Shown here: positions 1,859-64,000 of the stretch, in pieces
Layout of the letters: each line of letters starts with the position of its first letter
Numbering within the stretch: position 1 is the stretch's first letter
Assembly (NCBI RefSeq): GCF_042242105.1
Contig: NC_092016.1
Location: 12,290,501-12,354,500, forward strand
Source of the DNA: Pempheris klunzingeri
Lineage: Eukaryota; Chordata; Actinopteri; Acropomatiformes; Pempheridae
Reading direction: 5' to 3'
DNA length: 64,000 bases
Position numbers and translations under genes: made by a program
The notes under the pieces: model-generated
Told to the model about the DNA's origin: nothing
The model's input: only the letters and a program-made list of their open reading frames with translations
Databases searched by the model: none

Positions 1859-4800
1859 ATGGAGTGCCCTCACCTGAACTCAAATGTGAGCTCTCCTATC
1901 GATACCTCCCGGTTCCCCAACGCTGCTCCGTCCTCCTGGTGTTGCAACGGTAAGAAAAGTGTTTCTCACCCTCCCATGTTTCATTCAGTGTTATTAAATT
2001 TGACGTTATAGGAAAAACAGAACTACAGGTGTCTGCGTAATACTGTGGATAACAGCCTCAGCTGGTACTGCCACTGCCACGTTTGTGTCAGCCAGATTGA
2101 TAAAGTAGCTACAAGTCAACAGCCATCACAGGGGCAGATCACTATCCACAGGATGTGCTGCATAACCCTGAGACAAGTCAAAGACTAGTCCAGAGTCAAA
2201 TTCACTGCCTCACTAAACTGCACACTCAAGACGGCCTCGTGTTTTATCTCCAGTTTGTAGGTCGAATAAAAGTCCATGGATCTGCCTTACCTGTCTGATG
2301 GTCCATTGTGGAAGGTAAGTTGGTGTCTGTTGTTCTGTTGGCAAAAGAAGCTGTACTTAAACCAGTAAACACACCACACCACTAACTCAAATAATACACT
2401 GGTGTGTCTCAATCCTTTTGTTGACCATTTAGACTTTGTGGCCAGCAACTTAATTATACAACCATATAAGTCCTGTAATACACAGATTAAGGTTTTTAGT
2501 CTACAGAACTCAGTCAGTAGTCACCAAGGTGGGTGTATATAAATATGGCCCTTGACACCTGAAGTTAACAAAACACATATTAAGTATTTGGCAAAGGGAT
2601 TCCCCCAAAGCTGCGATTGTGTTAGGATAGGTCTGGCAAGCCCCAGTTTCTGCTTTTCTTTCATTATACTTTGTCACGCCACATAGTCAAGCATCTGTTG
2701 TGAACTCTTCTGATCGCGTAGATGTAGAATATTTTGTTGACTCCACACAAAAAAGATAAAAATTACGTGTCTGAAAATAAACGTCATACAATATTCTTTT
2801 TAAACAATATGAAATGATGTCAATATCTAAAGAATACTAAAATAACTGATGATCAAACTGCATATATTTTGCTTAAGGTCCTGCAAATCAAGTAAGGAGA
2901 TATGTAATGTCCACTTACCACATTAATGTTGAAAAGAGAATGTAGTCTGCGCTTAAATAGTCTGCACATTAATGCACTTAATGAAGTAAATAAAATGATC
3001 TGTGAGGTTTCTGGAAATACCGTCAAAGCATCAGTTTAACTACTTCCCAGGGTTGTTATTCAGGTTCTTGGATAACATTTGTGAGCATGATTAAAGCCAT
3101 AACTTATTGTCATGTTATTTGAGATGCTGTTTGCTATGAGGAAATCTCTCTCTATATAGATATGTCAATGGACATGCAAAGAAGCACTTTGAAGAGAGCC
3201 AAGTCGTTGGCATTAGCCAAAAGAAGGGTGAGAAACAAGAGAAAGAGAAATCCCATCATTCTGTCTGCATGGACTGCAGCAACTACAGCGTATTTTGGTG
3301 AGTGTCGTTCTAGTTTACAGTCTGTGACTCACTATGGCGCCCATGCAAAGGTACAGCCATAAAAACCTCAAAGGATTCTTATGGTGTGATAATGGCAACC
3401 AAATGTCATCATTGATTCATCGAAGCTAATCGCTTAACTTTGCAAGTGATCCAGCATTTTCCTGGTTACATGCCACAAATGATCAGATGGTAATTACAAG
3501 CAAAATACAGTGACCCACTTGTTTTTAAATTTATAGAACTATTTGATGAATATCGCTCCTGCCACATTTACACTTGTGGTTAAATGTTGCATGCTACCAC
3601 TGTGAAACAGAAGGCGATATTTGTATGATACCATGTTTAAATGGGTCCCAATCTCACCAAGTCTGTTGTGTTTTCAAATACGGAGCGAATGTGTCTTGAC
3701 TAATGTGGCTCTTATAGTTACAGATGTGATGACTTTGTTGTCAATGACACCAAACTCGGGCAGGTGCAGAAGGTGAGGGAGCATCTTCAGAGTTTTGAAA
3801 AGTAAGTATTACTCTCAACATTAACGCCATGAAATATACTGTCTATATCTCATTGTTTTACTCTATTGTCATTACATTTGCTAAATAACAATAATTCAAA
3901 CCTGGAATTAGTTTTTACAGTGAAGATGTATTTGCCAAACATCAGCCTGACAAGGAAGATATGCACATATGAAGATAAAATGTTGCCCCCTCTTACAGCT
4001 CAGCATTGATGGGTGACAGACAAAGGAAAAGGAAACTCCAGGAAAGCCCAGCTCCTGACAGCAAGTTGTTAAAAGACAATGTAAGTGTTGTGAGTGTTTT
4101 CCCTCATAAGAAGAAGCAAAGTTGTAGCCACTTCACAATTGTGTCCCAGCCCAAAAGGCTGAACTACCACTCAGACTTTGCTAAATTTTCCTTTTACAAG
4201 TTCTTGTTCACACTGTGTGACTTTGACTGGGCTCTAATTAAATGAGTCACATATGCCTTTAAAGAGCTTTACGGTCACAATATCTTTAACTGTTGCTATA
4301 TATGTGTATATATAATACACACACACTCCTTTATGTGTCTCTTGTCTCTGTCAGGACGGGGCAGCTTTAGGTGCTACCGGGCTGCGGAATTTAGGCAACA
4401 CGTGCTTCATGAATGCCATCCTTCAGTCCCTCAGGTAAGGCTCTGCAGCGAAGATGAGGTATGTGGGTGGTAAACTGAGTTTGCAGCATGGTTCAGTAGC
4501 TGTGCCCCTGCAGACCCAGGGCCCCACGACCAGTCATCCTTTATTAATACAGTCTGGGGCACAGTCAGGGGAATTACACGGGCTGCTTGGAAACAAGACA
4601 AGGCCAGATTTCCCAGCTAACTCGCATTTAGCCCGGTCCTGAAGGATTATACTTGTTTTTTTCCCACTGTTACTTTATATTGAGTACATTTCGTGTTTCT
4701 GCTCACCATTTATCAAGGCATGCCATAGATCTTTACGAAATATATGTAATCTGTTTTCCCACTTTACATCAGCTGTTAGTTTCGATCATGCACATGCACT

Positions 4801-7800
4801 ATGGTGTTAAAATCAATTTGCAGAAACTTTAAATGTGATTCATGATCGAATTCAACATGGTGAATTTCTAGTTGTAGATGAAACATAATATACCATAGTT
4901 ATTGCAGTTATATTATTTTTTTCATGGCAACCTCATCGCCCCCCTTAAAGTAAATAAATAAGTCAAATCATCAGTATCAAAACTGTAATGCAATTGAAAA
5001 GCAAAGCCAGACTGAAATGTTTATCTGTTTAGTTTAAGTCTGACTTTGGTAGCAAGAATTTGAATTTCATTAACATAGCATAGCTATTATTCCATTCTGC
5101 TATCTGTAGATTCATAAAAAAAACACAGTATACTTTAATTTAGGCTGCAATTGATAGAGCGATCTAGAGAGTAGAGCAGGTGGACAAGCTTGTCAAAAAC
5201 AGTGTGGAGCTGCTGGTCCGTGTGTAATTGTACAAATAAAGGGCATCAAATAATATTGCATTTTCAGACAAATGCGTATGAACTAGTATCGCATATATAA
5301 GACACGAAAATAAGGCATAATACTGACTTGCGAAAGTAAGTGCAGTGATTTGAAAATGAAAATATTTTCTTTGTTAATTGGTGAGAGGCTATAGTGTCCA
5401 AGATTTTAATAGGCGGCTGTATGGCTCTGTTGTCGGGCAATTAAATCCAGTACGGACAGTATTCATAACAAACATGACATAACATGGCTAATTCAATGCA
5501 AGAATTGGTTGTTGTTTAATTAGATAATTAATCTAAACATTCAACTGCAATGTTAAACAATAATAAAGTACTAACAAGGTAACAGTAACTAGTGTCCTCC
5601 TTGAAGGCCTGAGAACATTCAAAATCTAAACTGGCATGATTTGAAAGAAGTGTCAGCAGTGATGTAAACATGTCTGTATGATCACTCAAGATAATTAAAA
5701 CAAGGACATATAGCGAATGAAATCTTACAGTTTTTTATTATGTTGTCTGTAGACCACTTCCTTTTACAGTATTATTTTTTTTCATTCATTTTTTTTTTTT
5801 TTTTTCAAATATCAGGGCTTAAACATTTTATCACAAAACACGTGTTTCTTTGACAGCAACATCGAGCAGTTCAGCTGTTATTTCAAGGAGTTGCCTGCAG
5901 TGGCTCTACGCAGTGGTAAGACGGCAGGAAGAAGGATGTACCACACCCGCAGCCAAGGGGACAACAGTGTGTAAGGTCCTCTTCTGAAGGAGGGAGGGTT
6001 AATGGACTGAGTGCATGAGCTGAAATACATTTCAGCAATTATTAAAGTGACAAAAGTGTTACTTTGGAGTGAACATGGAAGATGACCTTTTTAGAAATCT
6101 TTTATGAGGCTTCTAACAGTTTACTCACTTCTAGTATTGCACTGCATAACAACATAATTAATGCTAAGAAAAAGCAAATGAAAACGATGAAGAACTGGAT
6201 GCAGAAGCAGAATCAATAGTAGTAGTGATATAAATGAAGTCATAGCAATTTCCATTCTAAATAACGAGTGACCAAAAAAGTGAAAAAATATCTGCATTGT
6301 CTGACACAAATTTGGGTATGTGTTTGTTAAGTATTGATAATTCTACGTGTGTTGTGTCTTTCTCTCCACCCAGTAGAGTTTTAGACCGGCTTTAGATGAG
6401 TTGTGCAGCGTGGTAACAGGGTTGCTTTATGCTGAACAGGTCTTTGGTGGAGGAGTTCAGGAAAACTCTTTGTTCCCTGTGGCAAGGCAGCCAGACCGCC
6501 TTCAGCCCCGACTCCTTATTTTATGCTATATGGAAAATCATGCCAAGTTTCAGGTATGTCAACATCTCCAGAGACTTTGCCAGAATTAAAGTTCTTAATG
6601 CAAAGCAGTAAATCATTTCCTTTTCAGTTCTGTTTTCTGTTCATTTATAACATGATATAGTCAAGATGTTGTCAAAGATGCAACATTCAATACGGACTAC
6701 AACAATCTGTTGTGAGTTTACAGTGATGTAAATGACATTTAAAGCTTTGTTTTTGTGTCCAGGGGCTATCAGCAGCAGGATGCCCATGAATTCATGCGTT
6801 ACCTGCTGGACCACCTCCACAGGGAGCTCCAGTACAGTCGCAACGGGGCGTCTCATCCAGTCTCACCCCAGGAGGGGGTCAGACTCTCCACCGCAGAGGG
6901 CAAATGCTGCATGTAATCCCAACAATTATTTGTTCATGCCAGTTTGTTTGTATGCTTCTGCTGTTTTCCAGTTGATTTTATATCGACAAATTAGACACAG
7001 TTCACATCGTAAACATAGTGTCAGCCATCATGGCATGGCTTATGGAACAGTGAAATAGCCCATTTTACTGTGGCATAAACATTCACATTGATTAAGCACC
7101 AGAAGATTTTAATGTGTATTTGTGTGTCTTGATTTGTTATAGAAATGGGACTGCCAGTGTTGTCACATCCATTTTTGGTGGCTTACTTCAGAATGAAGTA
7201 AACTGTCTGATATGTGGGACAGAATCTCGAAAGTTTGATCCATTTCTTGGTAAGACAAAAACAACTTTTGTCAGTGAATAAACACATGTAGCTTAGTGCT
7301 GTCCTCTCGCCATTAGTGTTCCTCCCCATGTCAAAGTTAATGAGAGACTGTAAACATTTATACATTAATATAATTGAAGCACAATACAGTCTGATGATGC
7401 TTGACATCAGACAATTTATTTCCTCTCAGATCTGTCTTTGGACATTCCCAGCCAGTTCAGACAAAAGAGAAGTAAGGACCAGGAGCCAGGGCCGACATGC
7501 ACCCTACGTGGTAAGTTTCTCACCGTCGGAGGTAACGTCTCATTACACATTTTTGGCAGCATTGTTTTCTAATTGTGGACTGCTGTGATTAATAACAGCA
7601 CTTCATATTCATTTGACTTTGTTTCAGACTGCCTACGTAGCTTCACTGACCTGGAAGAACTTGATGAAACAGAGCTGTACTATTGCCACAAGTGTAAAAA
7701 GCGACAGAAATCCACTAAGAAGTTCTGGATCCAAAAGCTGCCAAAGGTAAGGACAGAATTCCTCAATTCTTTCATTGCAATTTACTAAGTTGACTCTTTA

Positions 7801-10658
7801 TTTTATGACAGTAAAGTAGCGGGGAAATGTTTATGTTTTTTGGTATAATTTGAGGTTTTATTCCCAATTGTAGGTTCTGTGTCTGCACCTAAAAAGGTTC
7901 CACTGGACAGCCTTTTTGAGAAACAAGGTGGATACCTATGTGGAGTTTCCACTGAAAGGCCTGGACATGAGGGGCTACTTACTTGAGGTGAGCTCAAAAC
8001 AGAAGATGTGTGTTGGTCATTGAATTTCACAATGTAGCTTTAATCTTGGTCTTTTTCAAACAAGGCATCAGGAAATAGTGTAGATCTGTGGCAATTTGTG
8101 GACTTTGACAAAAATAAAGAGTGATACATTTATGAAATTGGAAAGTGCTGCAGTTTAGTCAGGAAACAGTCATGATTCATAGGCTACACCAGTGCCACAG
8201 AAAGAACTGTATCAGGTCTGAACTGTGCTCTTTCAGTTCAAGCTTCTGTGACATTTGGCTGCAGTTTTGTGGCTGTGACCATGATAACAAAAATAAACAT
8301 CCTCACAGATACTTGTATTAATAAGCCAACAGTTTTTTTCCTATCCACTGTTCAAAAACTTTAAAAACAAGTTTTTCATCGTGAAAATTATATTGGTATT
8401 ACCTCAGTCATACATGTAGGAAACGTCACAATACCACAAGACCTTCGTGTACTTGAGTCGAATTTAAACCTTTGTAATGAAGGGTTTGGTAACTTAAAAA
8501 AAGGACTCAAGACCTTAGTCACACCATGGAAATGCAAGACAACTGACTGTACTGTAAAACGTGAAATGACGGTGTACTGTAGTGGCTGCAATGTAAGTTG
8601 GGCACTAACACAGCAGCCGCAGACGGCATGAAGAGCAGACTATTTGAAATGTAGCTCCTTTGCCAAACTGGTGATTTAATCAAACTGAATTTCCCTCTTG
8701 GGCTGATGATGGATTTCTATCTACAGTGGAAAAAAATATGATTTGCTAGTTGGCAACCAGAGAGAGATCACTGTTGGCCCCTGGTGGCTGACCAGAGATG
8801 CACTACATCTGGAAAATGGGGATTGTCTTAAAATCGTATTATACACACACTAATAGAGATGAAACATAAAACCAAATTGAGCAATATAAAATTAATCCAC
8901 AGCTATTTTGATAGTTAATTGATTTTTTTTAAAAGGAAAACTACTTTAAATTCAGCCTCTAAAATGTAATGACATGGTGGTTTTGCAGATTTCTATGGTT
9001 ATAAACTGATTATCTTTGGGTTTCAGACTATTGGTTGTACATTTTATTGACTAAACCAGAGTTTCCCAACCCTTGTCCTGATGGCCCACAGCCCTGCATG
9101 TTGTAGATGCTTCCCTAACACACCTCATTCAAATGAGCTGACCATTTGAATGAGGTGTCTTCCAGCGTCATCCAGCTCTGCAGGAGCCTGATAACAACAC
9201 ATTCATTTGAATCAGGTGAAGGAAAATCTGAAACACCATCTATGACTCAAATTCCAAACCACCGGTGTGTTTTGGAATTTGAGAGTGCCTTTATGCGTCT
9301 TCCTGTCTGAAAGTGAGACCTCTGGATTGTGTACACGTCCAGATGCCAGGTGGTCTGTCTCCTTTAACTCGTAAATCTTTGAATCTTTGAGATGTTGTGG
9401 GTGGAACTGAGAACCCAGAAAGGAAATCCTTATCTCTCTTTTTTTTTTTTCATGTTTGCAGCCAGAGAATTTATTACCAGAAAGTTGCCTGTATGACCTT
9501 GTTGCTGTCGTAGTGCATCATGGATCTGGGTGAGTAGATGCAGTATCCCAGATTAAACACACGATTGGAGAATTTGAAAATGATATTTGCCTGGTTTCAG
9601 CTGTTAAATTATAATTTGCGGTTTTAACAAGCATATAGAGCATCTAGAGTGCTGCAGCATCTTGCATATCTCAGATTTGTCTGGGGGCAGTAGGTGTTTT
9701 CCCTATAGCTGACAGATGGTCATATATGTATGCAAGAAGTGCTATGTGCATGGTTGCAAAATGAACAGCTTGATCCCTACATTATGAAAAAAAAAAGAAC
9801 ACTCAGCCATGAATCTATACACTATCATCTGCGGACGAGCTCTGACTACCACAGCTGGCTGTCTGTCACCCAATTTCTGTATAAACAGTTCAGATCCAAT
9901 TTTGTTGAAAAGCCTTGTGGACAGCTGCAGTTTAAAAATTCATGAAGCCACTAAATGCTGAAAGGCATTACAGGCTGAGTCCTTGAAAATGAGTTGAGAT
10001 ATGCCAAGAGCTCTTCATCAAAGTGCTGCTGTTTTACCTTTTAGCCTCTAGGTGGGGATGTTGCGCTGCCACTGTGTTGTCAGGCTGAACGTGTCCCTCT
10101 CACTTCAGCAGCAGTAAACCAAGTCCTGTAAGAAACCAGACAGCAGAACATGATGTATGTGTCTGTGTCACCAGGGTTGGATCGGGACATTATACAGCAT
10201 ATGGCAGCCACGAGGGCCGCTGGTACCACTTCAATGACAGCACAGTGACTCTGACCAATGAGGACGTAGTGAGGAAGGCCAAGGCCTACATCCTCTTCTA
10301 CGTGGAGAGGACTGAACAGGTGGCCTCAGACAAGACTGCCACGAACAGCACAGCCACAAACAAGCCCGCTGTGGACACAGCCGCCATAGACGGCGTTTCT
10401 TCAGAAGCAGCTGCTCAGGACAAGGTTACAGCGGGCACGGACGACACAGATACGGTTTTGACGGATGTGGCAGCCTCACTCATGAATACCGTGGATGTGG
10501 CAGCGCCAGATAATGCTGCACTGGAAAATGTTGGTGAAGACATGGCCGAACTTTATGAAGCTGACACAGCTTCAATGGAAGCTGCAGCAGATAGGGATAC
10601 CTCAGACAAGGCTGCAACAGAGGAAGCCGGCCAGGCTGCACAAGCTGTTGCACAATGA
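1859..10658 (+). CDS. usp3: usp3: ubiquitin carboxyl-terminal hydrolase 3 (15 coding exons)
   Basis: USP3 is a nuclear cysteine protease that removes ubiquitin from histones H2A and H2B in chromatin and DNA-damage responses. Coding exons: 1859-1949, 2254-2314, 3160-3297, 3718-3801, 3999-4080, 4355-4434, 5857-5970, 6440-6553, 6763-6912, 7143-7249, 7430-7510, 7628-7746, 7874-7987, 9462-9529 and 10175-10658. All introns are GT-AG and the phases join to 1,887 nt, or 628 residues (human 520). The N-terminal ZnF-UBP finger shows C3, H5, C29, C32, C41, C44, C49, H56 and H60. The USP core has the Cys box NLGNTCFMN with nucleophile C169, the QQDAHEF motif, CxxC pairs (CLIC, CHKC) and the His box GSGHYTAYG with H473. 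The start MECPHL matches the human start. Oddity: after SDK521, where human USP3 nearly ends, 107 Ala/Asp/Thr-rich residues follow in the same exon. Confidence 0.96.
4435..5856. other. usp3 intron 6
   Basis: This is a 1.4-kb intron between a CAG|GTAAGG donor and a TTGACAG acceptor. It is AT-rich, with a T-rich run around 5,780-5,805 before the acceptor. No exon or repeat was recognised in it. Confidence 0.7.
8840..9057 (+). repeat. Dispersed teleost repeat in usp3 intron 13
   Basis: This is a diverged copy of the family at 1-115. It reads 'AATTAATCCACAGCTATTTT', then 'GATAGTTAATTGATT', then 'TATAAACTGATTATCTTTGG', then 'TTTCAGACTATTGGTTG'. The order agrees with the family as I know it. The left edge is approximate. 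Confidence 0.55.
9058..9240 (+). repeat. Short dispersed repeat with a perfect hairpin, usp3 intron 13
   Basis: It begins 'CAGAGTTTCCCAACCCTTGT' and continues with 'CCCTGCATGTTGTAGATG', 'CCTAACACACCTCATTCAAATG' in pieces, 'CTCTGCAGGAGCCTGATAAC' and 'CATTTGAATCAGGTG'. This is the order of a common teleost non-autonomous element that I recall from other fish. A perfect 15-bp inverted repeat (CACCTCATTCAAATG at 9121-9135 and its complement at 9143-9157) surrounds a 7-base loop. Confidence 0.6.
9530..10174. other. usp3 intron 14
   Basis: This 0.65-kb intron runs from a GTGAGT donor to the GTGTCACCAG acceptor. Open frames inside it (for example 9,730-9,945) have no recognisable protein similarity. 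Nothing else was seen. Confidence 0.65.
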
Positions 10659-11860: not shown

Positions 11861-12270
11861 GCCTAAAGCTTTGTCTTTTTGTGATGGACATCTTTCACAA
11901 TATTTTGAAGAAAAATGTCTTAATGCACACCTGTAATACCTTTTAAATGTATACGTTAGTTGATGAGAATCCACTGGTTTAACTTGAATAGCTAGTTTTA
12001 ACTATAAACCCTTTACACCACACGTACACTCTCTGATGTGCATGTCAGAAACTCTCTTGACTTTTTTTACATCTCTTTTGACTTTATTAGCTGGTGACCT
12101 GCACACCAGAAAGTACACTGTGTACATATATCCAATATAATTCTCTCAATACCATTAATATGACTTGTAATACTAAACAGCCTTTGATATGTCCAAGTAT
12201 GACCAGAGAGGAGAGCAAATGTCAAGTAAGCCTTTTTTTGTTGCTATTTTTCTTATGTGAACATCTCCGC

Positions 12271-13900
<1,630 letters not shown>

Positions 13901-14094: not shown

Positions 14095-17000
14095 ATGCAC
14101 ATCACCCAGCTCAACCGCGAATGTCTCCTCCACCTTTTCTCCTTTCTGGACAAGGACAGCCGGAGGAGTTTGTCCCTTACCTGTCATCAGCTGCGTGAGG
14201 TCTTCCTGGACCCCCGCCTCTGGAATCTACTCCACTTCAGCTCCCCGTGTCAGCTGAGGAAGGACAACTTTGTGCTGGGACCCTCATTACGCTACTTGCG
14301 TGTTTGCTGGTACTCCAGCAGGGTCCTGCAAGTGTGCAACATTGAGGATTGGTTGAAGACCTCGTTTCAGAAGGACATCTGCAGTAAGCATGAAAGCCTG
14401 GTCAGGACTTTCCTGGCTCATGTCTGCCACATGTGAGTGTCTGTGTGTGGTTCTCCTCTGCTTTGTGATGTATTTTGGAATCAAAACTGACAAACATTTC
14501 CTCTAATGGTCAGTGATGAAAAAGGGTCTTGGCCTCCAGGTTGAGAACAGCACAAACCACAACCTCAAATCCGACCACACAGCTAAATTACCTCCACTCT
14601 TAACACATCCGCAGGTAAAACAGAAGATTTTACTTTTAGCTGTTTTTTTTTTTTTTTGGATGAATCTTGAGCTGTTCCTTTTGTCCATTGCTGTAGCTGC
14701 TGGTCACAAGATAATGCTAAAAAATGTCTCCGTCTGAGGTTTCCCAGTTATGAGCTACATATGGACATTCAAAGTCTTGTCTTAAAATGTTTCATTTTGG
14801 TAAGATATGTCTTGAGGATGATCACACAGTTTCCAAAAAAACTCAGCAGGAAACAAAATTGTTTTCATCTAGAGGCACATGGTTTACTAAAACTGGCAGC
14901 AAGGAAGAAAATCATTAGAAACAGATGGTGTATCCGGTGCTGGCTTTAGAGACAAAGAAGTGACACATCTGTGGGACATACGACTGATTCTATTAACTAA
15001 CATAACTGTGGTCAGATATTAAATTATATTTATTGAATGATGTGACAGTTGGATTTGATAGGTCACTGAAATGTAGCTCTATTGGCATTTGGCCTTGTGT
15101 ATGTGGCTGGCTGCATGCAGGAATCAGCCTGGAGAAGCGTAATGAGGTCTCTGGATAATTTCTTCAAGGCAGCCAGTAATAACCGTTGATGTGAGGGAGC
15201 CTGGCCACCGCAGCTGGCCGGGACAAGAGGAGGGAAGAGGGGAGAGCTCATTGGCTGAGCTAACGGCCCTGCGAGGATTTCCTGTATTGTGAAATTTGAG
15301 ATGCAGGACATGAGAGCTGGGACACCAGTCAAACTAGACCCACCTACTTTGTCTGGGTCCTGTATCTCAACGCCCTCAAGGCACACTCACTGCATACTGA
15401 TAAACCCTCCCAAATTGTCTAAAGCAGAAGAGAGCAAGTGCACGTGACAAAGTGGGAGGAGACGCAGAGAAGCTGTGGGGGTGATGAAGAGTGATTTGGC
15501 TGCAGACCCTCCCAGTCAGCTGCAGACTGGAGATTTACGCAGGCAGGTGGAGCCTACAATTGGCTCTTTGTTGCCGTCAGAGGAATGAACATGTGCGTCC
15601 GTCTCTGCCTGCCTCTTCCTGGATAAGACTCCACGCAAACTCTGACGCCAAGCTCATGTCTGTCTTGTTTTTTTTTAATCTTCTTGGAAAAAAACTATAA
15701 AACATAGCGTGTCATTGGGCCTCTTTACAATGTTGTTTCCAGTGTAAGGTTCCTCTAACGCCAGATGATTATTGAATCAATGCTTAAGCACACAGTTATT
15801 TGATATTGATTAAGTTGAGGCCACGGTATTGGAGTTATACAACAGAAATTAAAATGCTCAACACGCCACTGTGTGTTGCACAGTGGGTAGCAAAAGAAGC
15901 ATTGAGTAGTTTGAGTCCAATATTTGATATGGACCATGTGAATAAATGGAAGCTTCTCTCTCAAAATGAGTGCAAGCACATCTTGGGTTACTATTTAAGT
16001 TGTAAGTTTTAAGACCCACAAAGTCTTACAGTCTTAAGTACAGTTCCAGCTGACAGCTAAATTTAGCAAATGAAATATGTCCAAAATCTGTTTAGCTTGT
16101 TTGAAGCAAACCCTTCCAATTAAAAGACCAAAGCTGCTGAATGTTAAATGTACGTCTCAGTTCCTTTTAGAGTTCACTGGATAATTTAACCAGACAAAAT
16201 AACCGTTAGGAAACCAAACAGGTCATTAGAGAGATGATTACAGGTTAGCAGTGTGGTGTTCCGCTTGTGCTCGGCTCAGACCAGGCTGCCCCTCGTGCTG
16301 TTTTTTTTTTATTTGCATCATGTCTCCAACCTAAATGAGAAGAAGGAAGCATTGCAGACATTTTTGTGGCGCATAGGACAGATAGCTAGATAGATAAGAC
16401 GAGTATGATCGATAACCCGAAGACAAATTTGGATGATGTCATCTTGTAGCATATTTTGTTCTGTCTGTCGTTATTAAGAGCTGCAACTGTACTAGATCAA
16501 AAGACGCACAGAAGACATCAGTGGGATAAACACGCTGCAGGGCAAGAACATTAGTATCAAATCAGGCAGCATGCAAAGAAAAACAGGCCAAACGAAAAAT
16601 TCCTTCTACATACTGTAGCAGTTTTTTCTGTGAGTCGTTTTTGCATTAACTGATTGCCAACTTGGGCTGAGAATCGATCAAAATGTCATTTTCACTATTT
16701 TTCACATTTTAAGTTTCAGATTTTAATGTGAAAGCCTTAATATTTTTTCTTAAATCAACTAATGTATTCCTGTAAAGCTGGGACATGTCAATGGAAAACA
16801 AATTCACAAATGAGGAATTGTCCATAGGACGAATAAAGACATCAATAGGGTCATCTTACCACCCTGAGAGGTGCTATGATCAAGTTCCCTGATGTGCCTA
16901 AAATTAAACTTCACTAATGTGCATGCGGGCATTTGTGTGTGAGAAAGCAAGAAAGGAATTTGCAATGAGGACGGATTAAGACAAGGTGGCATGCGGATAG

Positions 17001-18494
17001 TATATGCTTCAGTAGAAAAAACAACACCTACACACACACACACACACACACACAAATATCTGTACAAAGTGAGGGGGGTGTCATAAGAGGGTGGATTATG
17101 TAACAAAGGTTGATGAAGTTTTTATTCCTGTCATGTTTACCTCCATTCACTTCCCTGGTGTACTGAGCTTGTCTGCTGAGACGCACCAACAGTAGCAGTA
17201 CTAGTGACGACTAAATCTCTAAATGTCACCAGCTTTGATCTCTTGTCATTCCACCACCCCACCTCCTTTTTTGTCTTTTTTTTCTTTCTTTTTTGGTTTA
17301 TGTCAATCCTGTGCAGTCACATCCACTGATAAAGCCCCACATTGGCCCCATGCAACAATGCAACAGGGCACGTGGATTGACTGTTCAGAGGTTACTGGGA
17401 CAGTACCCTCAACACTTGCAGGCAACCGGAATATGTTTGGCTCACATGTGGCAAAGTGGTCAGATTATGTAAGTCTTTATATAATCTGCATCAGTGAACG
17501 TGAATGACATCCTCGCTCTGCTGCCATCAGAGTGTCTGTCTGCCAGCTCTGTGCTGCCGGCCTGCCAGTAGGTTGCAGTGCACTCCTGATACTACATGAA
17601 AATGTGCAGCTCACATTCATTTTCAGAGGTAATTCCAACAAAATTAAACGTGAGAAAATGCATTTTTGTCATATTATGATTCATCAAACATCCTGTGATT
17701 GTTCTGTGGAGTAGTACCATACTCCATTTATTCACAAAGGCTTTTTAGAGGACGGAAACTCATATGCCCAGTGGGACTGTGTGTGAAGAAAAGATAGCTT
17801 GGTCTAGGTATTAAACCGCTCTATCGTTAAACAGATCATGTTGCTGCGTCTCAGTGGTGTAGTTTACATCCCATTCACACATGGCTCAGATCAGGCCACA
17901 AAACTATGCTCTGCTCTGATATCGGATTCTATTCAAGAGCACTGAAAAGTATAGATCTGAAAATAAACACACACGCCAAACGGCATTGTTTACTTAAGGC
18001 TAGTCCTACTCCAAACAAGCTAATCCTTTCCTATTATACAATATGTCCTAAGGCGTGATGAGTGACGCAGAGCAGGTCTTGTACTGGTCGTACTCAAACA
18101 TGTGTCATTGGTTAATGAGGTTACTGACTGCTGTCTGTGTCACAGGTGTCCCAACCTGATCTCACTAACCTTGTCTGGATGTGGACACATCACTGACCAG
18201 GATGTGATCTCCATGCTGCAGAGCTGCAGGAAGCTGCGCCGCCTCTACCTGGAGAACTGCGTCCGCATCACCGACCACAGCCTGGAGGGTGTGGTGGCTC
18301 ATGGAGGCAGTCTGCAGGAGGTGAAGATGGACTTCTGCAGGAACATCACTCAGGCAGGGCTGCAGGCTGTCAGAGAGAAAAGGCCGGGCATCCAGCTGAG
18401 TGCGGAGAGGAGCGCTGATATGATCCCAGACAGCAAGCCTGAGGAGAGGGCGCCGCTCAGGAGGACGCTGCAGAAAGTCCTGCAGTTCTCCTAA
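14095..18494 (+). CDS. fbxl22: fbxl22: F-box and leucine-rich repeat protein 22 (2 coding exons)
   Basis: FBXL22 is a substrate receptor of SCF (SKP1-CUL1-F-box) ubiquitin ligases. It acts at the sarcomere in striated muscle, where it is reported to promote turnover of alpha-actinin and filamin. Exons are 14,095-14,432 and 18,146-18,494 with a 3.7-kb GT-AG intron; the phase joins to 687 nt, or 228 residues, about the family's usual length. The F-box occupies roughly residues 1-45, starting [21 protein letters not shown] middle segment has 'VCNIEDWLK'. Leucine-rich repeats follow from about residue 113, with the AMN1/FBXL-type pattern '[11 protein letters not shown]', '[11 protein letters not shown]', '[10 protein letters not shown]'. 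The start is the only in-frame ATG upstream of the F-box. As in human, it lies just downstream of usp3 on the same strand. Confidence 0.95.
16620..16760 (+). repeat. Weak copy of the 'ATCGATTAAT' teleost repeat
   Basis: 'GCATTAACTGATTG', 'GAGAATCGATCAAAATG' and 'TTTTCACTATTTTTCACATT' resemble scattered parts of the family. Divergence is high, so this call is tentative. Confidence 0.3.
17030..17054. repeat. (AC)n microsatellite
   Basis: About 12 perfect AC units within fbxl22 intron 1. Confidence 0.95.
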
Positions 18495-38259: not shown

Positions 38260-38683
38260 CGATCCTCGTGTCCACGTGTTTGTGTCATTTCCATGTCATT
38301 TGCATATGTAAACCGGCCTCGCCTATCGCTCCGCAGCTGCACGGAGCCGAGAAGCCGATTTGTCAGTCGGGGGCGACTGAAGAGCAAATGGGAGAGCAGG
38401 TCCCCGCTAATCCCGCCCTCCCAGACACGTTGCCTTGGGAGAAGCAACACGGGCCGATCACTGGCTGTACCGTCTCCCCATTCTCTCTCTCACACTCACA
38501 CACACACTCACACACACATACACACACACACACTCACTCACTCACTCACACACACTCTCTCTCTCTCTCTCACACACACACACGCCCCGCACGTCCAGCA
38601 CATCAGCTGCTCTGTGGCCGACGGTCCTGCCGGATTCACCGCTGAACATCGGGAGAGTTTAAGCAGCCGCTCCATCCTGGGAA
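38260..38683 (+). promoter_or_regulatory. Candidate ciart-like promoter and non-coding first exon
   Basis: The ciart-like coding exon opens with a strong splice acceptor at 40,856, so an upstream non-coding exon must exist. A GC-richer stretch at 38,600-38,683 ending in a donor (GGGAAG|GTACGA, intron starting at 38,684) is the best candidate seen. Upstream lie CTCGTG (38,265-38,270), a canonical E-box CACGTG (38,273-38,278), an octamer ATTTGCAT (38,298-38,305), a D-box-like ATATGTAA (38,304-38,311) and CACGTT (38,426-38,431). E-box and D-box control is expected for CIART. The first exon and start site are inferred, not shown. Confidence 0.35.
38484..38584. repeat. CA/CT simple-sequence tract
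   Basis: Mixed (CA)n, (CACT)n and (CT)n tracts cover about 100 bases directly upstream of the candidate ciart-like first exon. Open frames through it (38,151-38,760) are artefacts of the repeat. Confidence 0.9.
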
Positions 38684-39122
38684 GGTACGAACCTGCTCTA
38701 CCGATCCACATCTTAACCAGCAGACCAACATCACTCATTGCTGTGAGTGTGTGGAGGTGATTTTTTTTAAAATCTTTTTTTTAAATCATCCACAGGAATT
38801 TGACGCAGACGTGATGACCACAAGTTAACAATTATTTGCGTTGAATGATTTATATGACAGACATAGGGGTGACTAATCATCCCCGTCTGCGTTTATGGTT
38901 TTATATAATCTAAATGTGCATGCTGCCAAATTTACTATGACTGATGAGGAAGTCTATTGTGTCTGTTACCCAACTGATTTGAAACCCGCATTTAGGCGGA
39001 CAGATCGGATCGTTCACCTTATCAGTTTTTCCTTTTTTCTATGTGAGTAAGATAGTGATGTTTGATCTCTTCATGCGAATATTATTCTCATAATATTTCG
39101 TGTTTATCACCGTCTTAAAAAA

Positions 39123-40856: not shown

Positions 40857-40896
40857 GTCAGTGATGGTCAGTGCTAGTTAGAGTCTGCAGCCGAGG

Positions 40897-43800
40897 ATGT
40901 CTGCTACAGATTCGGACAACTCCATTGACTGGCTGGCTAGTGACAACGAGGACAATGAGAGCGAACAGAAGTGTGACTGTACCAGAAAGCACAGCCAGAC
41001 AGAGGCCTCTCCATCCCCCAGCACCCCGCCACACCTGGGCCCGTCTGACAGCAGCTGCCGCCAGAGCAGCGAGGTGAAGGAAAGCGATAGTAACTGGAGC
41101 GAGGTCAGGGAGGCCTACAGGCGGGGATCTCCCCCCAGCTGCATGGAGACGTGGGACAGCTCCAATGGACTGTATAAAACGCAACAAGGAGAAAAAACGA
41201 ACGGCAAAAACACTCAGCAAGCAGTGAAGAGACCTCACAGCGCCACAGAGGAGGAGGGCAAGGAACGGCAGCTCATTTCCAGTGTGTCAGAGAAAAACAG
41301 AGTTTTCAGCAGTAAGGTGAGCACCTCTCTGACTGAAGTCTGTTTCACACAGGAGGAGGTATTTGACTGTCAGCAAAACTAAAGCATGGCCCATCACCTA
41401 GATTAACTCTCCTGGCAGTTTTACAGTGTCTCATGCATGCCTTTCCATTAAAGATGGCACTCCTGTATAACTCTAAAAGCAGAATTAGTCATGCTTTTCT
41501 GGAGAACTCGAGTCATCCTATCATATGTCAAACTCAGTGAATCAGTTATCTTAATCACATTGAGCAACTTTTCTATGAAAATGAACTGTAGTTTGTGGAA
41601 GCCCGTTTGATATCAGCTTTTCAAAAGGTCTTTGAACACGTTTTGACAGATATCACCTACAAATGAATCTATTTGCATTTTCAGTGCAAGGAGCTACAAT
41701 GCTACATTCATCCACTGTCATCTATCTTGAATGGCCTCCGTTCAGGGAGATACAGAGAACGTAAGTCAGCCATTTAATATCTGTCCTGTTTTTGTCTCTC
41801 TGTACTGTTTAACACAACCATTTTTTTAGCTGTGCCTTCATCTCCCCGTCTGTCTCTCTCTCTGCTCCTGTCTTTCTTATGTGTCAGAGAAAAACAATAG
41901 GCTGAATACGACAGCGTGCCACTCTAAATAGAATATGTGTCCCTGAGATTTGAGAGGGAGATGTCTGAACCGTGTATTGTTGTAGGACTATCAAGTAACC
42001 ACAAGTATTTCCTGTGTGTGTGTCTATCTTTCATAATGGAGCTCATTTTAGGTGAAGGTTCACTCATCAATTTCATTGTTTCAAAATGTCTTTTTAAAAG
42101 TTACAAACCAAATTTTTTTTAACCAATTGAGAACAACTTGAAAATTAGCTGATTGGCAGAAGCGAGTGAGAACATACTGTACCACAGTGTCCACTAAGGC
42201 AGCTGCTGTTTGTGAGTAGTCTGATAAGTGTTATAAGGGTCTCTGGGGGATAGTGCCATGTTCAGACAGGCTCTGAAAACTGCTTGGGATCTTTGCCAAG
42301 CCCAGACCTTGTGTGACCCAACACTTCCTGGCCACAGAGGCATCGAGTGTGTTCCCACACACACACACACACACATTTTACACAACCCATATGCTGTGCA
42401 GACTCAACCCTGCCGTCATCACAGCTCATGTGGCTCATGGTACGACTTTCTTCCTTTCCAGGACTCAGCAGTTTCCAGGAAAGCGTGGCCATGGACAGGA
42501 TCCAGAGGATCATGGGTGTCCTGCAGAACCCCTGCATGGGGTGAGTGTCCTCAGCATGGCCCACACACTGTTATACATGAAACAATGAGCTCTATCATCT
42601 AATATTCTCTTTGTCTCCTGTGTATGTTTCTGGGGCCACAAACACATCCTGAGCCATATGTTCACTTTCTCCAGCCTGTCTTGTGTCTGTGCAAGTGTTT
42701 TACTGAAAGAGAAAACCTCTGCTGCGTCCAATTCCATCAGAGCAACAACAACAATACATTCAACGGCAACACACAATTACAGCTGACAAATGTTTAGAAA
42801 TGGTGTTTGCTGCCTGTGGGTCAAAGTGGTCTCCGGCATGTCTGGGACACATGGCTCACAGCAGGTTGGCCTGCGAGGAGCTGCTACCCCCACACAATCA
42901 GGATGAATTTACTGCAGAGATGGCTGCATCTCCCTATAGCTGGGCATCTTGTTAAAAATGTATCAGGCTCCACTGTGAGCGCAGCACACTTGTGTCTGCT
43001 TGATTAGCTCTCCACTGGCCAGACGGTATAATGGAGTATGAGATATCACCCCTTTTAAAAGGAGAAAGTCCCTAGTCTCTGGAACACGATCATCTCAGCC
43101 TCTTTAGCATCTGATATTGTATATTTAAGCACAAGGCAATATGGTTTATCAATATATCAATAGAATGTTTTCTGATTAAAAATATAACAATATAACGTAT
43201 AGTAATAATAATGATGCTGATATGTGCAATTTACTTGCCATTTTGATAAACTTTACATATCTAAAGCAAAAACATCCATACCTAATTTTGCTAGTTTTTT
43301 ATTCCATTTTCTTTTAAATGATCAATGTGGACTGGGACTGCAACTAATAATCATGTTTTTATTGATTATCTGTGTCAAATGTGACGTATCTAAAGTACCT
43401 GCTTTGTCTAACAGCCAAAAACCTAATGAGATTTACAAGAAGTAAATGAGTAACCAAACAGTAAAAATAATTATTTGAATTCTAAATGAGATGATTATAA
43501 ATGAAATGGCACCTTCATGTACTATTCTCCTCTGAATTTAAAACGGCACCACTGGTACCTGTATGGAAAGCAAATCCTGCCTTGCTGAGCAGCCAGACAC
43601 TGTGAGGTTTTGCATCAACGTATACTGATTTAAGATAACGTGCTACTGAGTTTGGCACAGACTAATCGGAGCCCTCACCCACCAGCTGCTGCCCTCATAT
43701 GGGAGACAAAGAGTGGGTGTGGCAGTCTCCCTGCAGACAGCCGGGGTGAAGGCTGGAAGGTGGACTAAACCCCTCCCTCCCTCCATCGCTCCCTCCCTCC

Positions 43801-45402
43801 GACCCTCCCTGTGCCTGCTCTGTGTTGCCAGCTGGCAGCCCCTGCAGCAACACAATGGTAGATAGGATCAAAGTGACTTTTTTAGCAGCCACTGTTGCGG
43901 ATAATCTTTCACATGAATTTATCATGCTCTGAATGGAGTATAGCAGGAAGGTCCTGATCATATGACATGGGCTAATCCCTACCCACCATCTGGTTTTGAC
44001 GGGTGGGAGTTAATCGGACGTTGCTCTCTGCCGCCCACCTCCACCGAGAATTACGTCATCACAACTAGTTTATTTTCGCAGTGACGCTGTTTGAGGCCGT
44101 TGTGGCTTTGGTGTTTATATTTAGAGGCGAGCAGAACTGTTACAGGCCTACATCAGGCCATGTGCGAGCTCAAAACATGTGAGAAATGTACTTGAAAAGA
44201 CAACCTCCCCCCCCTCACACACACACACGCACACACGCACACACACACGTGGAGCACAGGCTTTGCTAAGCAAGTATTAAGTGTTCACTCGCTGTTCAAG
44301 ATTGCATATTTCCTGTGTGAGCTTGATGGAGAGATACAATTTAAGAGAAGATAACTTAAGGCTTGATAACTTTAGTAAATGTCTCTGTCTTTACACCTTT
44401 CCTTTCCTGCCTTTTTTTCAGGGAGAAATATATCAGTATCATTCTTAAAATGGAGGAAATGCTGAAGAGCTGGTTCCCTAACGTGAAACTCCAAGACCAG
44501 CCCGCTGTCACCCAGACAGAGGAAGCCCTTCCCGCCAAGCAACCGAAGGTAAAACTGAGAAAAAGCAGAACAGTTGTGTAAGAAGTCTTTAGTTGGACCA
44601 GGCCTGCTGCCAAGAACATATGCAGACACAGTGAAGGACTGAATAAAATATCTATTATTATTTAATCACTAGTCTTGGACAGGTATGGGAGGATTAAAAG
44701 GTATTTTTGCTGAGGTATAACTGCAGTCTCAGGTTCACTAAGAACAATGGCAGAGGAGAAAAGGTAATTTTGGAGGAGTGCCTCTAAGGGGATAAGAAAG
44801 GTCAGAATACTCTCAAATGTTCCTTTACATTTAATTGGTGAGGATTTATTTCTGTGGCTAATCCTGACGCACCCTCCCATAAACTGGAATTTCATGTAAA
44901 ATGAGTTTTTCTCCATAAAGAAGCTATTTTGCATTATGTAACTGGTCACACTGGATGTTAAAGCAACACAGCGACTTTTAAGCTGCAATGAGCGTTTTTA
45001 TATGAACAGTTATTGCTGTTTTCAGCCCAGGCAGGCAGCTAGTTACAGTAACAAAACTCTGATGAATCCAGTGTACATTAGCTGCCACTTAACTACTCAA
45101 CTAGCTAGTGAACAACTACTAGAACCTGAAGGTTTTTTTTAGGAGATATGAGAGACCAAAACAGAGCTTGGGTGGCCAGAAACGCAAGGCTAAAAAGCAA
45201 TTATTGCAAGATTAAAGCCACAATGTATAGTGGTGTTTGTTAAAAAAAAAGAAAAGAAAGAAAGTTCTAGTGTAAATTGGGGCGATGTACATGTGTTACT
45301 TACAATCTGTTCGTCCCAGAGTTCCTAGGTGGTGCCAAATTTGGAAATTTTCAAACGATGTTTGACGTTTCAGAAAAGTTACATGTTAATATATGTTTAC
45401 AG

Positions 45403-45481
<79 letters not shown>

Positions 45482-45989
45482 TTTGAGTGCCTCTGATATG
45501 TGACAGGAAGGTTTTTTATTGATCAGTGGGCATCGTCCCTGAATAATAATCCACCACATAGATTAAATTAAACTGTGTTTTCTTCTTTCCTGGCAGGTTA
45601 CCCCGGCGACCGCCACCGCAGCTGTGAGCCCCGTCACCGTCAGTGATCCTCCAGCCGCTGTCAAAGCCCTGAGAGTCACCGACCTCACTCCTCCTGGAGC
45701 CTACTCTGCTAGTAACCTGAAGTGGCTCCACACGTCACCCATCTGCTCCCCCACAGCAGAGCAGGCCCAGGCTGGCCCCAGGCACCTGCTGCCCCCCAGA
45801 GACAAACATCTAATGCAGGACAACGCAGTGTCCTCCAGCACAGACAGCAAAACTAATACAGACTCAGTGCCCAGAGGCCCTCCACCAGGCAAAATCAACG
45901 CGCCCTGTCTAGAGAGGCTCCTTAAGTCGACAGAGAGCATCATCACCTGCAAGGGGTCGGGCAGTTTGATGGACAGCAGCTGGTCCTAG
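40897..45989 (+). CDS. ciart: ciart-like: circadian-associated transcriptional repressor (CHRONO family), 5 coding exons
   Basis: CIART/CHRONO binds BMAL1-CLOCK at E-boxes and represses it, acting in the nucleus within the circadian feedback loop. Coding exons: 40,897-41,316, 41,685-41,760, 42,462-42,540, 44,422-44,548 and 45,597-45,989. All introns are GT-AG and the phases join to 1,095 nt, or 364 residues (human about 385). Residues 1-140 are acidic, Ser-rich and low-complexity. The conserved helical core starts at C141 ('CKELQCYIHPLSSILNGL', then 'SSFQESVAMDRIQRIMGVLQ', then 'MLKSWFP'). A second conserved motif, 'LKWLHTSPIC', lies at 275-284. The start ATG at 40,897 follows a tiny upstream ORF (ATG at 40,864, five codons then TAG). 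It sits outside the position known for human CIART (1q21), so it may be a separate paralogue; the symbol is given at family level. Confidence 0.88.
43325..43470 (+). repeat. Copy of the 'ATCGATTAAT' teleost repeat
   Basis: 'GACTGCAACTAATAATCATG' followed by 'TTTATTGATTATCTGTG' and 'TGTCTAACAGCCAAAAACC' matches one end of the family at 55,740-56,030. Confidence 0.5.
44050..44060. promoter_or_regulatory. CRE/E4BP4-like site in a ciart-like intron
   Basis: ATTACGTCATC combines a half-CRE with a PAR-bZIP/E4BP4-type core. It lies in a GC-richer block (43,990-44,110) that also has 'GTGACGCT'. It is a motif match only. Confidence 0.25.
44216..44248. repeat. Interrupted (AC)n microsatellite
   Basis: An AC tract of about 33 bases interrupted by two GC steps, following a short poly-C run. 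Confidence 0.9.
44950..45240 (+). repeat. Possible diverged dispersed repeat in a ciart-like intron
   Basis: 'GCTAGTGAACAACTACTAG', 'GGAGATATGAGAGACCAAAA' and 'CAGAGCTTGGG' recall a teleost repeat containing 'GGTGGAGACCAAAACAGAGC'. The match is partial and the edges uncertain. Confidence 0.3.
45411..45472. repeat. (TA)31 microsatellite followed by poly-T
   Basis: A perfect TA run of 62 bases is followed directly by about 12 T residues, 125 bases before the last coding exon of the ciart-like gene. Confidence 0.95.
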
Positions 45990-47200
45990 TCCACACAGAG
46001 GGCTGGGTGTCCAGCTGTAAGCACCGCACAGCCCAACCTAGCCTTGCCCACCCTGCCGGGAGCCAGTCAGCTCGCTTAGCCCATTCCAGCCTTCAGGGGA
46101 GATGGGAGTCTTCAAAAGGGATGTCACAGATTCCTCTCAATGTGGAAGGAGTGTCGACGAACATGTTGTACTCTCTGTTTGGGAATGTTCCCCCTCTGAC
46201 ATGACAAGTGTCCGCTTTTGTTGACTTATCTTTGTTTCTTTGTTTGCACTCTTCAATAGCGTGTGTGAGACTGGGAAGGATAGATTTCACGTGCCGAGAT
46301 CACCGGAGCTAGTGATTTCACAACTGAATTTTTCCCACTGGCTTGTAGATGCAATAATACAGTTTGAGTATCTGTGAAACCGCCATTATGCCTGAAAGGG
46401 AAAGGATTGCAGGTTGCAGTAGTTTGTGCCGGAAGGGAGTTATCTCAGATATCCAGACATGTCAATGGTCTACATATTGTTGTGCTGAAAATGTGGGTGA
46501 AATGTGATGTTAGTTTCTTCCCCCACCCCATGACTCCACTTTTAAGTTTATTGATGTGACTGTTACTCATTTGTATACTTTATAAATAAGTCTTTTGGTA
46601 CAACTGTTCTACCTCAGTGGGCACCACGTCACAGTTAGTGAGTAGGAATGTGAAGGCTACGCTCAAAGTCTGGACACCTCACCAGATATGCAGTGAGCCA
46701 AACGGCCTCAGACAGCGAGGTCTGCAGTACGAGTCGTTCTGCATGTACAAACAGAGGATGTTCTCTCCATGGGGATGCTCTTGTGGCCTGACTGGTGCCA
46801 TTGTAAAGAATGTTAACTGCAGATTTCTTTTTTGAGTCTCCCAGTAGAAGGCAAACTGTGCCTGTAACGTCAAGCTGTGCCTGTAAGCCGGTTTGATAAA
46901 GAGAGAGAACTGTTCAGAATACGTGCTCCTCTGTGGGATGTACAAATCAGGAATTCTCACTCTCCTGCCATTTTCCTGTATCGAGTAAATTATTCAGATC
47001 TTGCCAACTACTTTCTGTGGTGGAGTAGAACAATTCTTTTATTTTGCCACAGAACTGGACAGTATGTTAGACCAGCAGAGAGGGACAAGGTATTTCTCTG
47101 TGTAAATCTTACAGAAAGGTTGTTGATTTACCCTGAAAAGTGGCCTTTATAGTGTGAAATTTTATACTTTCGAAATAAATGTGGTTATCTTTGTTTGATG
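45990..47200 (+). other. Probable ciart-like 3' UTR
   Basis: About 1.2 kb of non-coding sequence follows the stop codon and ends near a strong AATAAA at 47,175-47,180. A second, weaker candidate (TATAAATAA) lies near 46,580. The frames inside are random. Confidence 0.5.
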
Positions 47201-53782: not shown

Positions 53783-55384
53783 TAGTGGGGCAAAAAAGTA
53801 TTTAGTCAGCCACCAATTGTGCAAGTTCTCCCACTTAAAAAGATGAGAGAGGCCTGTAATTTTCATCATAGGTATACCTCAACTATGAGAGGCAAAATGA
53901 GAAAAAAAAATCCAGAAAATCACATCGTCTTATTTTTAAAGAATTTATTTGCAAATTATGGTGGAAAATAAGTATTTGGTCAATAACAAAAGTTCATCTC
54001 AATACTTTGTTATATACCCTTTGTTGGCAATGACAGAGGTCAAACGTTTTCTGTAAGTCTTCACAAGGTTTTCACACACTGTTGCTGGTATTTTGGCCCA
54101 TTCCTCCATGCAGATCTCCTCTAGAGCAATGATGTTTTGGGGCTGTCGCTGGGCAACACGGACTTTCAACTCCCTCCAAAGATTTTCTATGGGGTTGAGA
54201 TCTGGAGACTGGCTAGGCCACTCCAGGACCTTGAAATGCTTCTTACGAAGCCACTCCTTCGTTGCCCGGGAGGTGTGTTTGGGATCATTGTCATGCTGAA
54301 AGACCCAGCCACGTTTCATCTTCAATGCCCTTGCTGATGGAAGAAGGTTTTCGCTCAAAATCTCACGATACATGGCCCCATTCATTCTTTCCTTTACAGG
54401 GATCAGTCGTCCTGGTCCCTTTGCAGAAAAACAGCCCCAAAGCATGATGTTTCCACCCCCATGCTTCACAGTAGGTATGGTGTTCTTTGGATGCAACTCA
54501 GCATTCTTTCTCCTCCAAACACGACAAGTTGAGGTTTTACCAAAAAGTTCTATTTTGGTTTTATCTGACCATATGACATTCTCCCAATCCTCTTCTGGAT
54601 CATCCAAATGCTCTCTAGCAAACTTCAGACGGGCCTGGACATGTACTGGCTTAAGCAGGGGGCACGTCTGGCACTGCAGGATTTGAGTCCCTGGCGGCGT
54701 AGTGTGTTACTGATGGTAGCCTGTTACTTTGGTCCCAGCTCTCTGCAGGTCATTCACTAGGTCCCCCCATGTGGTTCTGGGATTTTTGCTCACCGTTCTT
54801 GTGATCATTTTGACCCCACGGGGTGAGATCTTGCGTGGAGCCCCAGATCGAGGGAGATTATCAGTGGTCTTGTATGTCTTCCATTTTCTAATAATTGCTC
54901 CCACAGTTGATTTCTTCACACCAAGCTGCTTACCTATTGCAGATTCAGTCTTCCCAGCCTGGTGCAGGTCTACAATTTTGTTTCTGGTGTCCTTTGACAG
55001 CTCTTTGGTCTTGGCCATAGTGGAGTTTGGAGTGTGACTGTTTGAGGTTGTGGACAGGTGTCTTTTATACTGATAACGAGTTCAAACAAGTGCCATTAAT
55101 ACAGGTAATGAGTGGAGGACAGAGGAGCCTCTTAAAGAAGAAGTTACAGGTCTGTGAGAGCCAGAAATCTTGCTTGTTTGTAGGTGACCAAATACTTATT
55201 TTACCGAGGAATTTACCAATTAATTCATTAAAAATCCTACAATGTGATTTCCTGGATTCTTTGTCCCCATTCTGTCTCTCATAGTTGAAGTGTACCTATG
55301 ATGAAGATTACAGGCCTCTCTCATCTTTTTAAGTGGGAGAACTTGCACAATTGGTGGCTGACTAAATACTTTTTTGCCCCACTG
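53783..55384 (-). mobile_element. Tc1/mariner-type DNA transposon, about 1.6 kb, defective
   Basis: Both ends carry inverted repeats of about 200 bases (53,783-53,982 and 55,185-55,384). They begin CAGTGGGGCAAAAAAGTATT on the right; the left has one change at its first base. TA target duplications flank the element (53,781-53,782 and 55,385-55,386). Each repeat contains two similar direct repeats, an outer 'AAGTATTTAGTCAG' and an inner 'AAGTATTTGGTCA', so it is the IR/DR type. The element lies between the ciart-like gene and dapk2. The enclosed transposase is frameshifted, so the copy cannot move by itself, although its ends look good enough to be mobilised in trans. Confidence 0.92.
53999..55018 (-). 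pseudogene. Tc1-type transposase, two frameshifts
   Basis: The N-terminal part (54,707-55,018, minus) starts [12 protein letters not shown] and has the paired-like helix-turn-helix with '[20 protein letters not shown]'. The C-terminal part (53,999-54,607, minus) is the DDE catalytic domain, with '[12 protein letters not shown]' (first D), '[11 protein letters not shown]' (second D) and '[11 protein letters not shown]' (E), the DD34E arrangement. Between them the frame is lost near 54,720, apparently through a 2-base deletion, and again near 54,661 through a 1-base deletion. The two losses together restore the original frame. The full reading length would have been near 340 residues, normal for the family. 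The antisense open frames over this region are shadows. Confidence 0.9.

Positions 55385-57969: not shown

Positions 57970-64000
<6,031 letters not shown>

Follow-up and report, generated by a model that had tools for sequence, protein, structure and literature searches.

A gene of the CIART/CHRONO family was identified in a stretch of 64,000 nucleotides from Pempheris klunzingeri (assembly GCF_042242105.1, contig NC_092016.1, positions 12,290,501 to 12,354,500 of the forward strand), referred to here as the window. The gene is probably a functional CIART paralogue of the 15q22 side, which arose as an early-vertebrate ohnologue and then yielded, through the teleost duplication, the window copy and a second copy on another contig (C1). 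These two genes form class A, which is a second subfamily of a family treated as single-gene and which has apparently been lost in humans. Two further ciart genes, on contigs C8 and C16, form class B. The original prediction had proposed a second CIART from the early vertebrate duplications, and this is supported by a genome that holds several ciart genes and by a tree in which the window gene stands apart from those with 1q21-type neighbours; the dating is drawn from synteny and distances, not from a rooted tree.

Structure of the window gene

The window lies on contig C5 of an assembly of 646 Mb in 439 contigs. The ciart gene is intact and contains five coding exons, joined in one frame by GT-AG introns (40897-45989, forward strand), that encode a protein of 364 residues. 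The spliced protein matched the Pfam family Ciart (PF15673) with an expectation value (E) of 1.5e-41 and 143 bits, against a curated cut-off of 27, and Ciart was the sole Pfam family matched at E up to 0.001. The spliced frame and the family match confirm the five-exon CIART-family gene that had been proposed between fbxl22 and dapk2.

All exons are on the forward strand. The start codon, at 40897, is in an exon that extends from 40857 to 41316 (coding 40897-41316). This exon is followed by coding exon 2 (41685-41760), in which the helical core begins, coding exon 3 (42462-42540), which contains the SSFQESVAMDRIQRIMGVLQ core and was hit by the family search of the genome, and coding exon 4 (44422-44548), in which the helical core ends. 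The last exon (45597-47180) is coding to 45989, carries a class A motif with PCLERLL (an LxxLL sequence) and continues as the 3' untranslated region with AATAAA at 47174. Moving the last junction by one base yields an identical protein. The limits first given for the gene (40857-47180) are right because an acceptor AG, read by eye, ends at 40856 ahead of the start-codon exon and AATAAA is present at 47174. A candidate non-coding first exon (nominally 38455-38684, forward strand), absent from the list of the original prediction, ends by eye at a GT donor after 38684 in a region of 49% G+C.

Four ciart loci in two classes

A search of the genome with the Ciart family model gave six exon matches at four loci, on C8, C1, C5 (the window) and C16; these are the loci above the threshold, and a degenerate fifth copy below it is possible. 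The spliced frames are intact at all four loci and encode 435 (C8), 372 (C1), 364 (C5) and 342 (C16) residues. One exon layout is common to the four genes, with coding exons 2 and 3 of 76 and 79 nt throughout, so the window gene is not a chance arrangement. Chance open reading frames or a pseudogene were ruled out by the intact frames at the four loci, together with a proportion of nonsynonymous differences (pN) in the core far below that of synonymous differences (pS). Another ciart in the same genome had been anticipated and was found on searching, and the three further copies rule out a single CIART that was translocated.

The helical core consists of 73 residues that align without gaps in all four fish genes, at the level of sequence and not of fold. 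Across these columns 59/73 residues are identical between C5 and C1 (class A) and 52/73 between C8 and C16 (class B), against 44/73 between C5 and C8. The N-terminal MSxxDSDxSIDWLASD and the C-terminal RGPPPxKIxxPCLERLLxxxESII are common to C5 and C1 and occur in neither C8 nor C16. Support was 99.1-99.7/100 for the branch with class A on one side and class B plus the mammal on the other, and both alternative trees tested, each pairing class A with a class B gene, were rejected by the approximately unbiased (AU) test (p at most 1.3e-4). A class A/B split at the teleost duplication itself is ruled out, since each class already has two copies. The expectation of a single second CIART in fish was borne out in that a class distinct from the 1q21-type CIART exists, but that class comprises two genes and not one. 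The C16 gene (C16:8593370-8593744, minus strand) is without the W-containing motif that precedes the C-terminus in C5 and C8, and its branch is the longest among the four genes.

Placement of mammalian CIART

Two mammalian sequences were compared with the fish genes. The human core was a provisional sequence, and the mouse Chrono residues (ELQGFIRPL, GERYLGTLLQV and TWFPHI) were translated from the oligonucleotides given in the accessible part of PMC3988006, the middle peptide joining two apparently overlapping oligonucleotides. The 26 mouse residues were matched at 21/26 in C8 and 13/26 in C5. Ten columns of the core separate the two classes; the mouse covers three of them and has the class B state in all three, and the provisional human core agrees with class B in 8 of the 10, with neither class in 2 and with class A in 0. 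In 18 columns the two class A genes share a residue that neither class B gene has, and at 1 of these the provisional human core has the class A state. Placement of the mammal beside C5 was rejected by the AU test with p=7.4e-5 (mouse) and 1.9e-6 (provisional human core), and placement beside C1 with p=0.009 and 9.0e-6, respectively. As a sister of C16 the mammal was rejected with the mouse residues (0.029) and not with the provisional human core (0.097).

On these few columns, the grouping of mammalian CIART with class B is supported by sequence comparison. The window gene had been predicted not to be the orthologue of human CIART, and this agrees with a tree in which C8, C16 and the mammal are on the other side and C5 pairs with C1, the copy linked to herc1. 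Pomfret Ciart primers, inspected by eye, gave no clear match.

Neighbourhoods of the ciart genes

Within this one genome, the class A genes lie in 15q22-type neighbourhoods and the class B genes in 1q21-type neighbourhoods. The order in human 1q21 is taken to be CA14, APH1A, CIART, MRPS21, PRPF3 and RPRD2, which the C8 locus fits and from which C16 differs in the side of rprd2. The human 1q21 and 15q22 regions are likewise assumed to be paralogous blocks. About 13 kb upstream of the C8 ciart lies a carbonic anhydrase whose best match among solved structures is CA14 (E=3.4e-20, versus 2.4e-17 for CA12), and 12.5 kb downstream lies the only prpf3 detected in the genome. The only mrps21 detected in the genome lies 5.4 kb from the C16 ciart; the family search put mrps21 on C16, although scans of the window and of the C8, C1 and C16 stretches with two mrps21 motif patterns had no hit. 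Exons resembling rprd2 occur among the open reading frames listed for C8 (16.727-16.730 Mb) and on C16 on the opposite side of ciart from mrps21 (CREPT family, E=2.5e-8). Among the open reading frames listed for C16 is also an exon with an RNA recognition motif that looks like what we take to be celf3. Thus ca14, mrps21 and prpf3 lie beside the C8 or the C16 ciart, and the window instead has usp3, fbxl22 and dapk2. Human CHRONO is placed at chr1:150255862 in the portion of PMC7177903 that was available.

The C1 ciart lies tail to tail with herc1, which ends about 4 kb away. The HECT exons of this herc1 were matched by Pfam with E=3.6e-36, and its repeats have HERC1 as the best solved match (E=1.9e-144). 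In human 15q22, HERC1 presumably lies between FBXL22 and DAPK2, which is the slot of ciart in the window. For class B, prpf3 was found only on C8 and mrps21 only on C16, a pattern typical of teleost-duplicated blocks; fbxl22 is on C5 only, and the class A copies are on C5 and C1. Another ciart had been expected near aph1a and ca14. The C8 copy is indeed beside ca14, but no aph1 was found beside the class B genes (C8, C16) in the genome search. An open reading frame resembling RNase A (C8 16671807-16672400, minus strand; Pfam RnaseA, E=2.3e-5) lies about 26 kb upstream of the C8 ciart.

Origin of the two classes

An age of the class A/B split greater than that of the fish-tetrapod split is favoured by the sequence distances and the synteny; the tree is unrooted and contains no outgroup. 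In 2000 site bootstraps, the mammal was nearer to class B than class A was in a fraction of 0.996 with mouse and 1.000 with the provisional human core, and this human core was nearer to class B than to class A in 0.992. The internal branch leading to class A is 0.35-0.47 substitutions per site. If both within-class pairs date from the teleost duplication, the identity of 59/73 for C5-C1 against 52/73 for C8-C16 means that the distance of class A is not accounted for by a high rate of change in that class overall. The older-split distances and the paralogous neighbourhoods together make an early-vertebrate ohnologue the best reading.

Several observations weigh against this reading. The tree is built on 73 columns, of which 26 have mouse letters, and class A, class B and the mammal form a three-way split, so the order of branching is taken from distances and synteny. 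The separation of C8 and C16 from the mammal is only moderately supported (82-91 / 72-90), and the mammal as a sister of C8 was not rejected (p=0.317 with mouse and 0.204 with the provisional human core). The mouse residues were nearer to class B than to class A in only 0.899 of the bootstraps, and they match C1 at 16/26 yet C16 at 15/26. With the mouse residues, the Shimodaira-Hasegawa test does not reject placement beside C5 (p=0.088) or C1 (0.104). Outside the core, C5 and C1 have diverged; all alignable codons give a pN of 0.369, 165/332 residues are identical and the termini are loosely held.

The neighbourhoods contribute points of the same kind. The only Aph-1 gene detected in the genome is at C1:3545555-3550247 (minus strand), 1.08 Mb from the C1 ciart. 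A second herc1-like copy, 60-86% identical to the C1 herc1 by exon, is on C19 (15443832-15445223, minus strand) and none is near C5; with herc1 on C1 and C19, the class A block lacks a neat pair of partners from the teleost duplication. The position of the rprd2-like exons on C16 differs from the order that we assume for human. The name rprd2 is itself presumed and weakly supported, as the C8 exons are without a Pfam match and the C16 stretch is without a match among solved structures.

The unrooted tree without an outgroup also permits a duplication confined to ray-finned fishes, after the tetrapod split and before the teleost duplication, by which class A landed in the usp3-fbxl22-herc1-dapk2 block and nothing was lost in humans. 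This origin is considered unlikely, because 0.996-1.000 of the bootstraps place the mammal, and not class A, nearer to class B. If both within-class pairs date from the teleost duplication, a branch of 0.35-0.47 followed by a class A slower than class B would further require a short and very fast burst of change, and it would be a coincidence for the copy to have landed by chance in the very block regarded as the counterpart of 1q21. Two CIART genes that predate the vertebrate duplications, with class A and class B surviving from different ancestral genes, would fit the deep split, as the internal branch of 0.35-0.47 gives no upper age; this is very improbable, since the classes lie in neighbourhoods taken here, as in the original prediction, to be duplicated counterparts, which is expected of ohnologues. 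A relocated orthologue of human CIART would share the Pfam Ciart family with the window gene but can practically be dismissed, since two other loci hold the 1q21-type neighbours and the mammal-like residues and the AU test rejects the mammal beside C5.

Conservation of the core and a shared upstream element

Both pairs have a conserved core, with pN and pS of 0.128 and 0.79 for C5-C1 and of 0.189 and 0.65 for C8-C16; the synonymous sites are saturated, so that only the contrast between pN and pS is meaningful.

A candidate promoter element (38412-38454, forward strand) with a CACGTT E-box at 38426 is conserved with the region upstream of the C1 ciart (84% over 44 bp, E=6.9e-5). The local score between C5 and C1 was 49, compared with a maximum of 30 in 500 shuffles by two-base blocks. 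On the ciart strand, the window and the 60-kb C1 stretch each have a single occurrence of the 13-mer CAGACACGTTGCC, and both class B stretches lack it. A CACGTG E-box in the candidate promoter (38273-38278, no strand assigned), predicted from sequence only, lies within the nonamer CACGTGTTT, which is also found at -2508 in the C1 copy; it is present in both class A genes, 153 and 191 bp further upstream of CAGACACGTTGCC. E-boxes alone are common, as the window contains 20 CACGTG and each of the four ciart genes has E-boxes within 8 kb. A search of the 8 kb upstream of each gene found no tandem E-boxes spaced 5-8 bases apart.

Proposed function

In the accessible parts of PMC7177903 and PMC3988006, the helical middle part of mammalian CHRONO is described as binding the C-terminus of BMAL1 and repressing BMAL1-CLOCK; the mechanism is further treated in part of PMC3988004. 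The repression domain is given in PMC7177903 as the central helical residues 111-196, extended to 264. By analogy, CLOCK:BMAL1 would drive the class A ciart through the upstream CACGTT and CACGTG boxes, and the class A protein would enter the nucleus, where its helical core would bind the C-terminal activation domain of BMAL1. The bound protein may then block coactivators or recruit a deacetylase, as reported for mammalian CHRONO. Because the class A core is conserved, a CHRONO-like action is most likely; BMAL1 binding, repression of BMAL1-CLOCK and rhythmic expression are predicted properties of class A. The peptide PGPIRCRHRSKVS, described in the available portion of PMC11599456 as the nuclear localisation peptide of human CHRONO, was not seen by eye in any of the four fish proteins, including those of class B, and was not treated as family-defining.

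The two classes differ in their LxxLL sequences. In each class B protein the core contains two LxxLL and the C-terminal end none, whereas both class A proteins have an LxxIL-type sequence in the core and a single LxxLL near the C-terminus. As one or more LxxLL arise by chance in 9-24% of the shuffles of each protein, this difference is a lead only. It could indicate that class A is real and old but now has a mainly non-clock role, for example as a nuclear-receptor cofactor acting through the C-terminal LxxLL that both class A proteins have, with none in the core, unlike class B. Such a changed role is rather doubtful, since conservation is highest in the helical core (59/73, against 165/332 overall, for C5-C1), the upstream region retains E-boxes and the chance frequency in shuffles applies to each protein. 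It can be suggested, tentatively, that two CHRONO genes of distinct design were present in the first jawed vertebrates and that the mammalian clock is a reduced one. In such a scheme the class A protein would retain the BMAL1-binding helical core, and its LxxLL at the C-terminus rather than in the core might, in fish, couple CLOCK-BMAL1 repression to nuclear receptors (e.g., the glucocorticoid receptor) differently from CHRONO, and teleosts might have up to four CHRONO brakes.

Relation to known CIART genes and clock repressors

The closest known system is mammalian CIART/CHRONO (Gm129, C1orf51; PF15673), a BMAL1-CLOCK repressor that shares with the window gene the Pfam domain and the helical core. 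A further likeness is a motif with W that precedes the C-terminus, LKWLHTSPIC in the window gene and LTWVHVAPIL in C8. The window gene differs from mammalian CHRONO in the published mouse core residues, which are found at 13/26 compared with 21/26 in C8. It differs from class B in its N- and C-termini, in the location of LxxLL and in its 15q22-type neighbours. CIPC is also a CLOCK-BMAL1 repressor, like the proposed class A protein, as is CRY according to the part of PMC7177903 that was available.

Zebrafish ciarta and ciartb are already in print (PMC5397488 and PMC11884735, each in part). In the portions available, ciarta is stated to cycle in cavefish (PMC8297936), and ciartb to peak at zeitgeber time 0 (ZT0) in zebrafish testis (PMC11884735). 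These are fish CIART genes like the window gene; their names suggest a teleost pair, and one of each class is possible. CHRONO is described as having no reported homologous gene in the accessible part of PMC7177903, and as mammal-only in that of PMC3988004. An account of a CIART ohnologue or paralogue was not found in the literature searched, where subscription papers mostly fall outside the coverage.

If the early-vertebrate origin of class A is correct, repression of BMAL1-CLOCK by the CIART family relied on two genes in early vertebrates and became simpler towards mammals, and fish may run the body clock with an extra CHRONO brake. Expression studies of fish 'ciart' may mix two different genes, and ciarta and ciartb may not be a simple teleost pair.

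Neighbouring genes and other features of the window

Three neighbours of ciart were delimited in the window. The 3' part of usp3 (4316-10655, forward strand) has limits set by the edges of open reading frames and contains a UCH domain (E=1.8e-12). The fbxl22 gene (14095-18491, forward strand; F-box-like, E=2.3e-7), with exon matches at 14095-14445 and 18087-18491, is the only strong match to fbxl22 in the whole genome. The 3' part of dapk2 (58730-63202, minus strand), likewise limited by open reading frame edges, lies tail to tail with ciart and has DAPK2 as its best solved match (E=2e-59). No tRNA genes were found in the window, and among viral contigs there were three pattern matches, none of them confirmed as a relative.

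Downstream of usp3, at about 12270-12550, the open reading frame list reveals a long simple repeat of the (CA)n type. Between ciart and dapk2, two adjoining open reading frames of 235 and 124 residues (53999-55081, minus strand) are in the same frame with a stop between them and, by eye, look like a transposase of the Tc1/mariner type.

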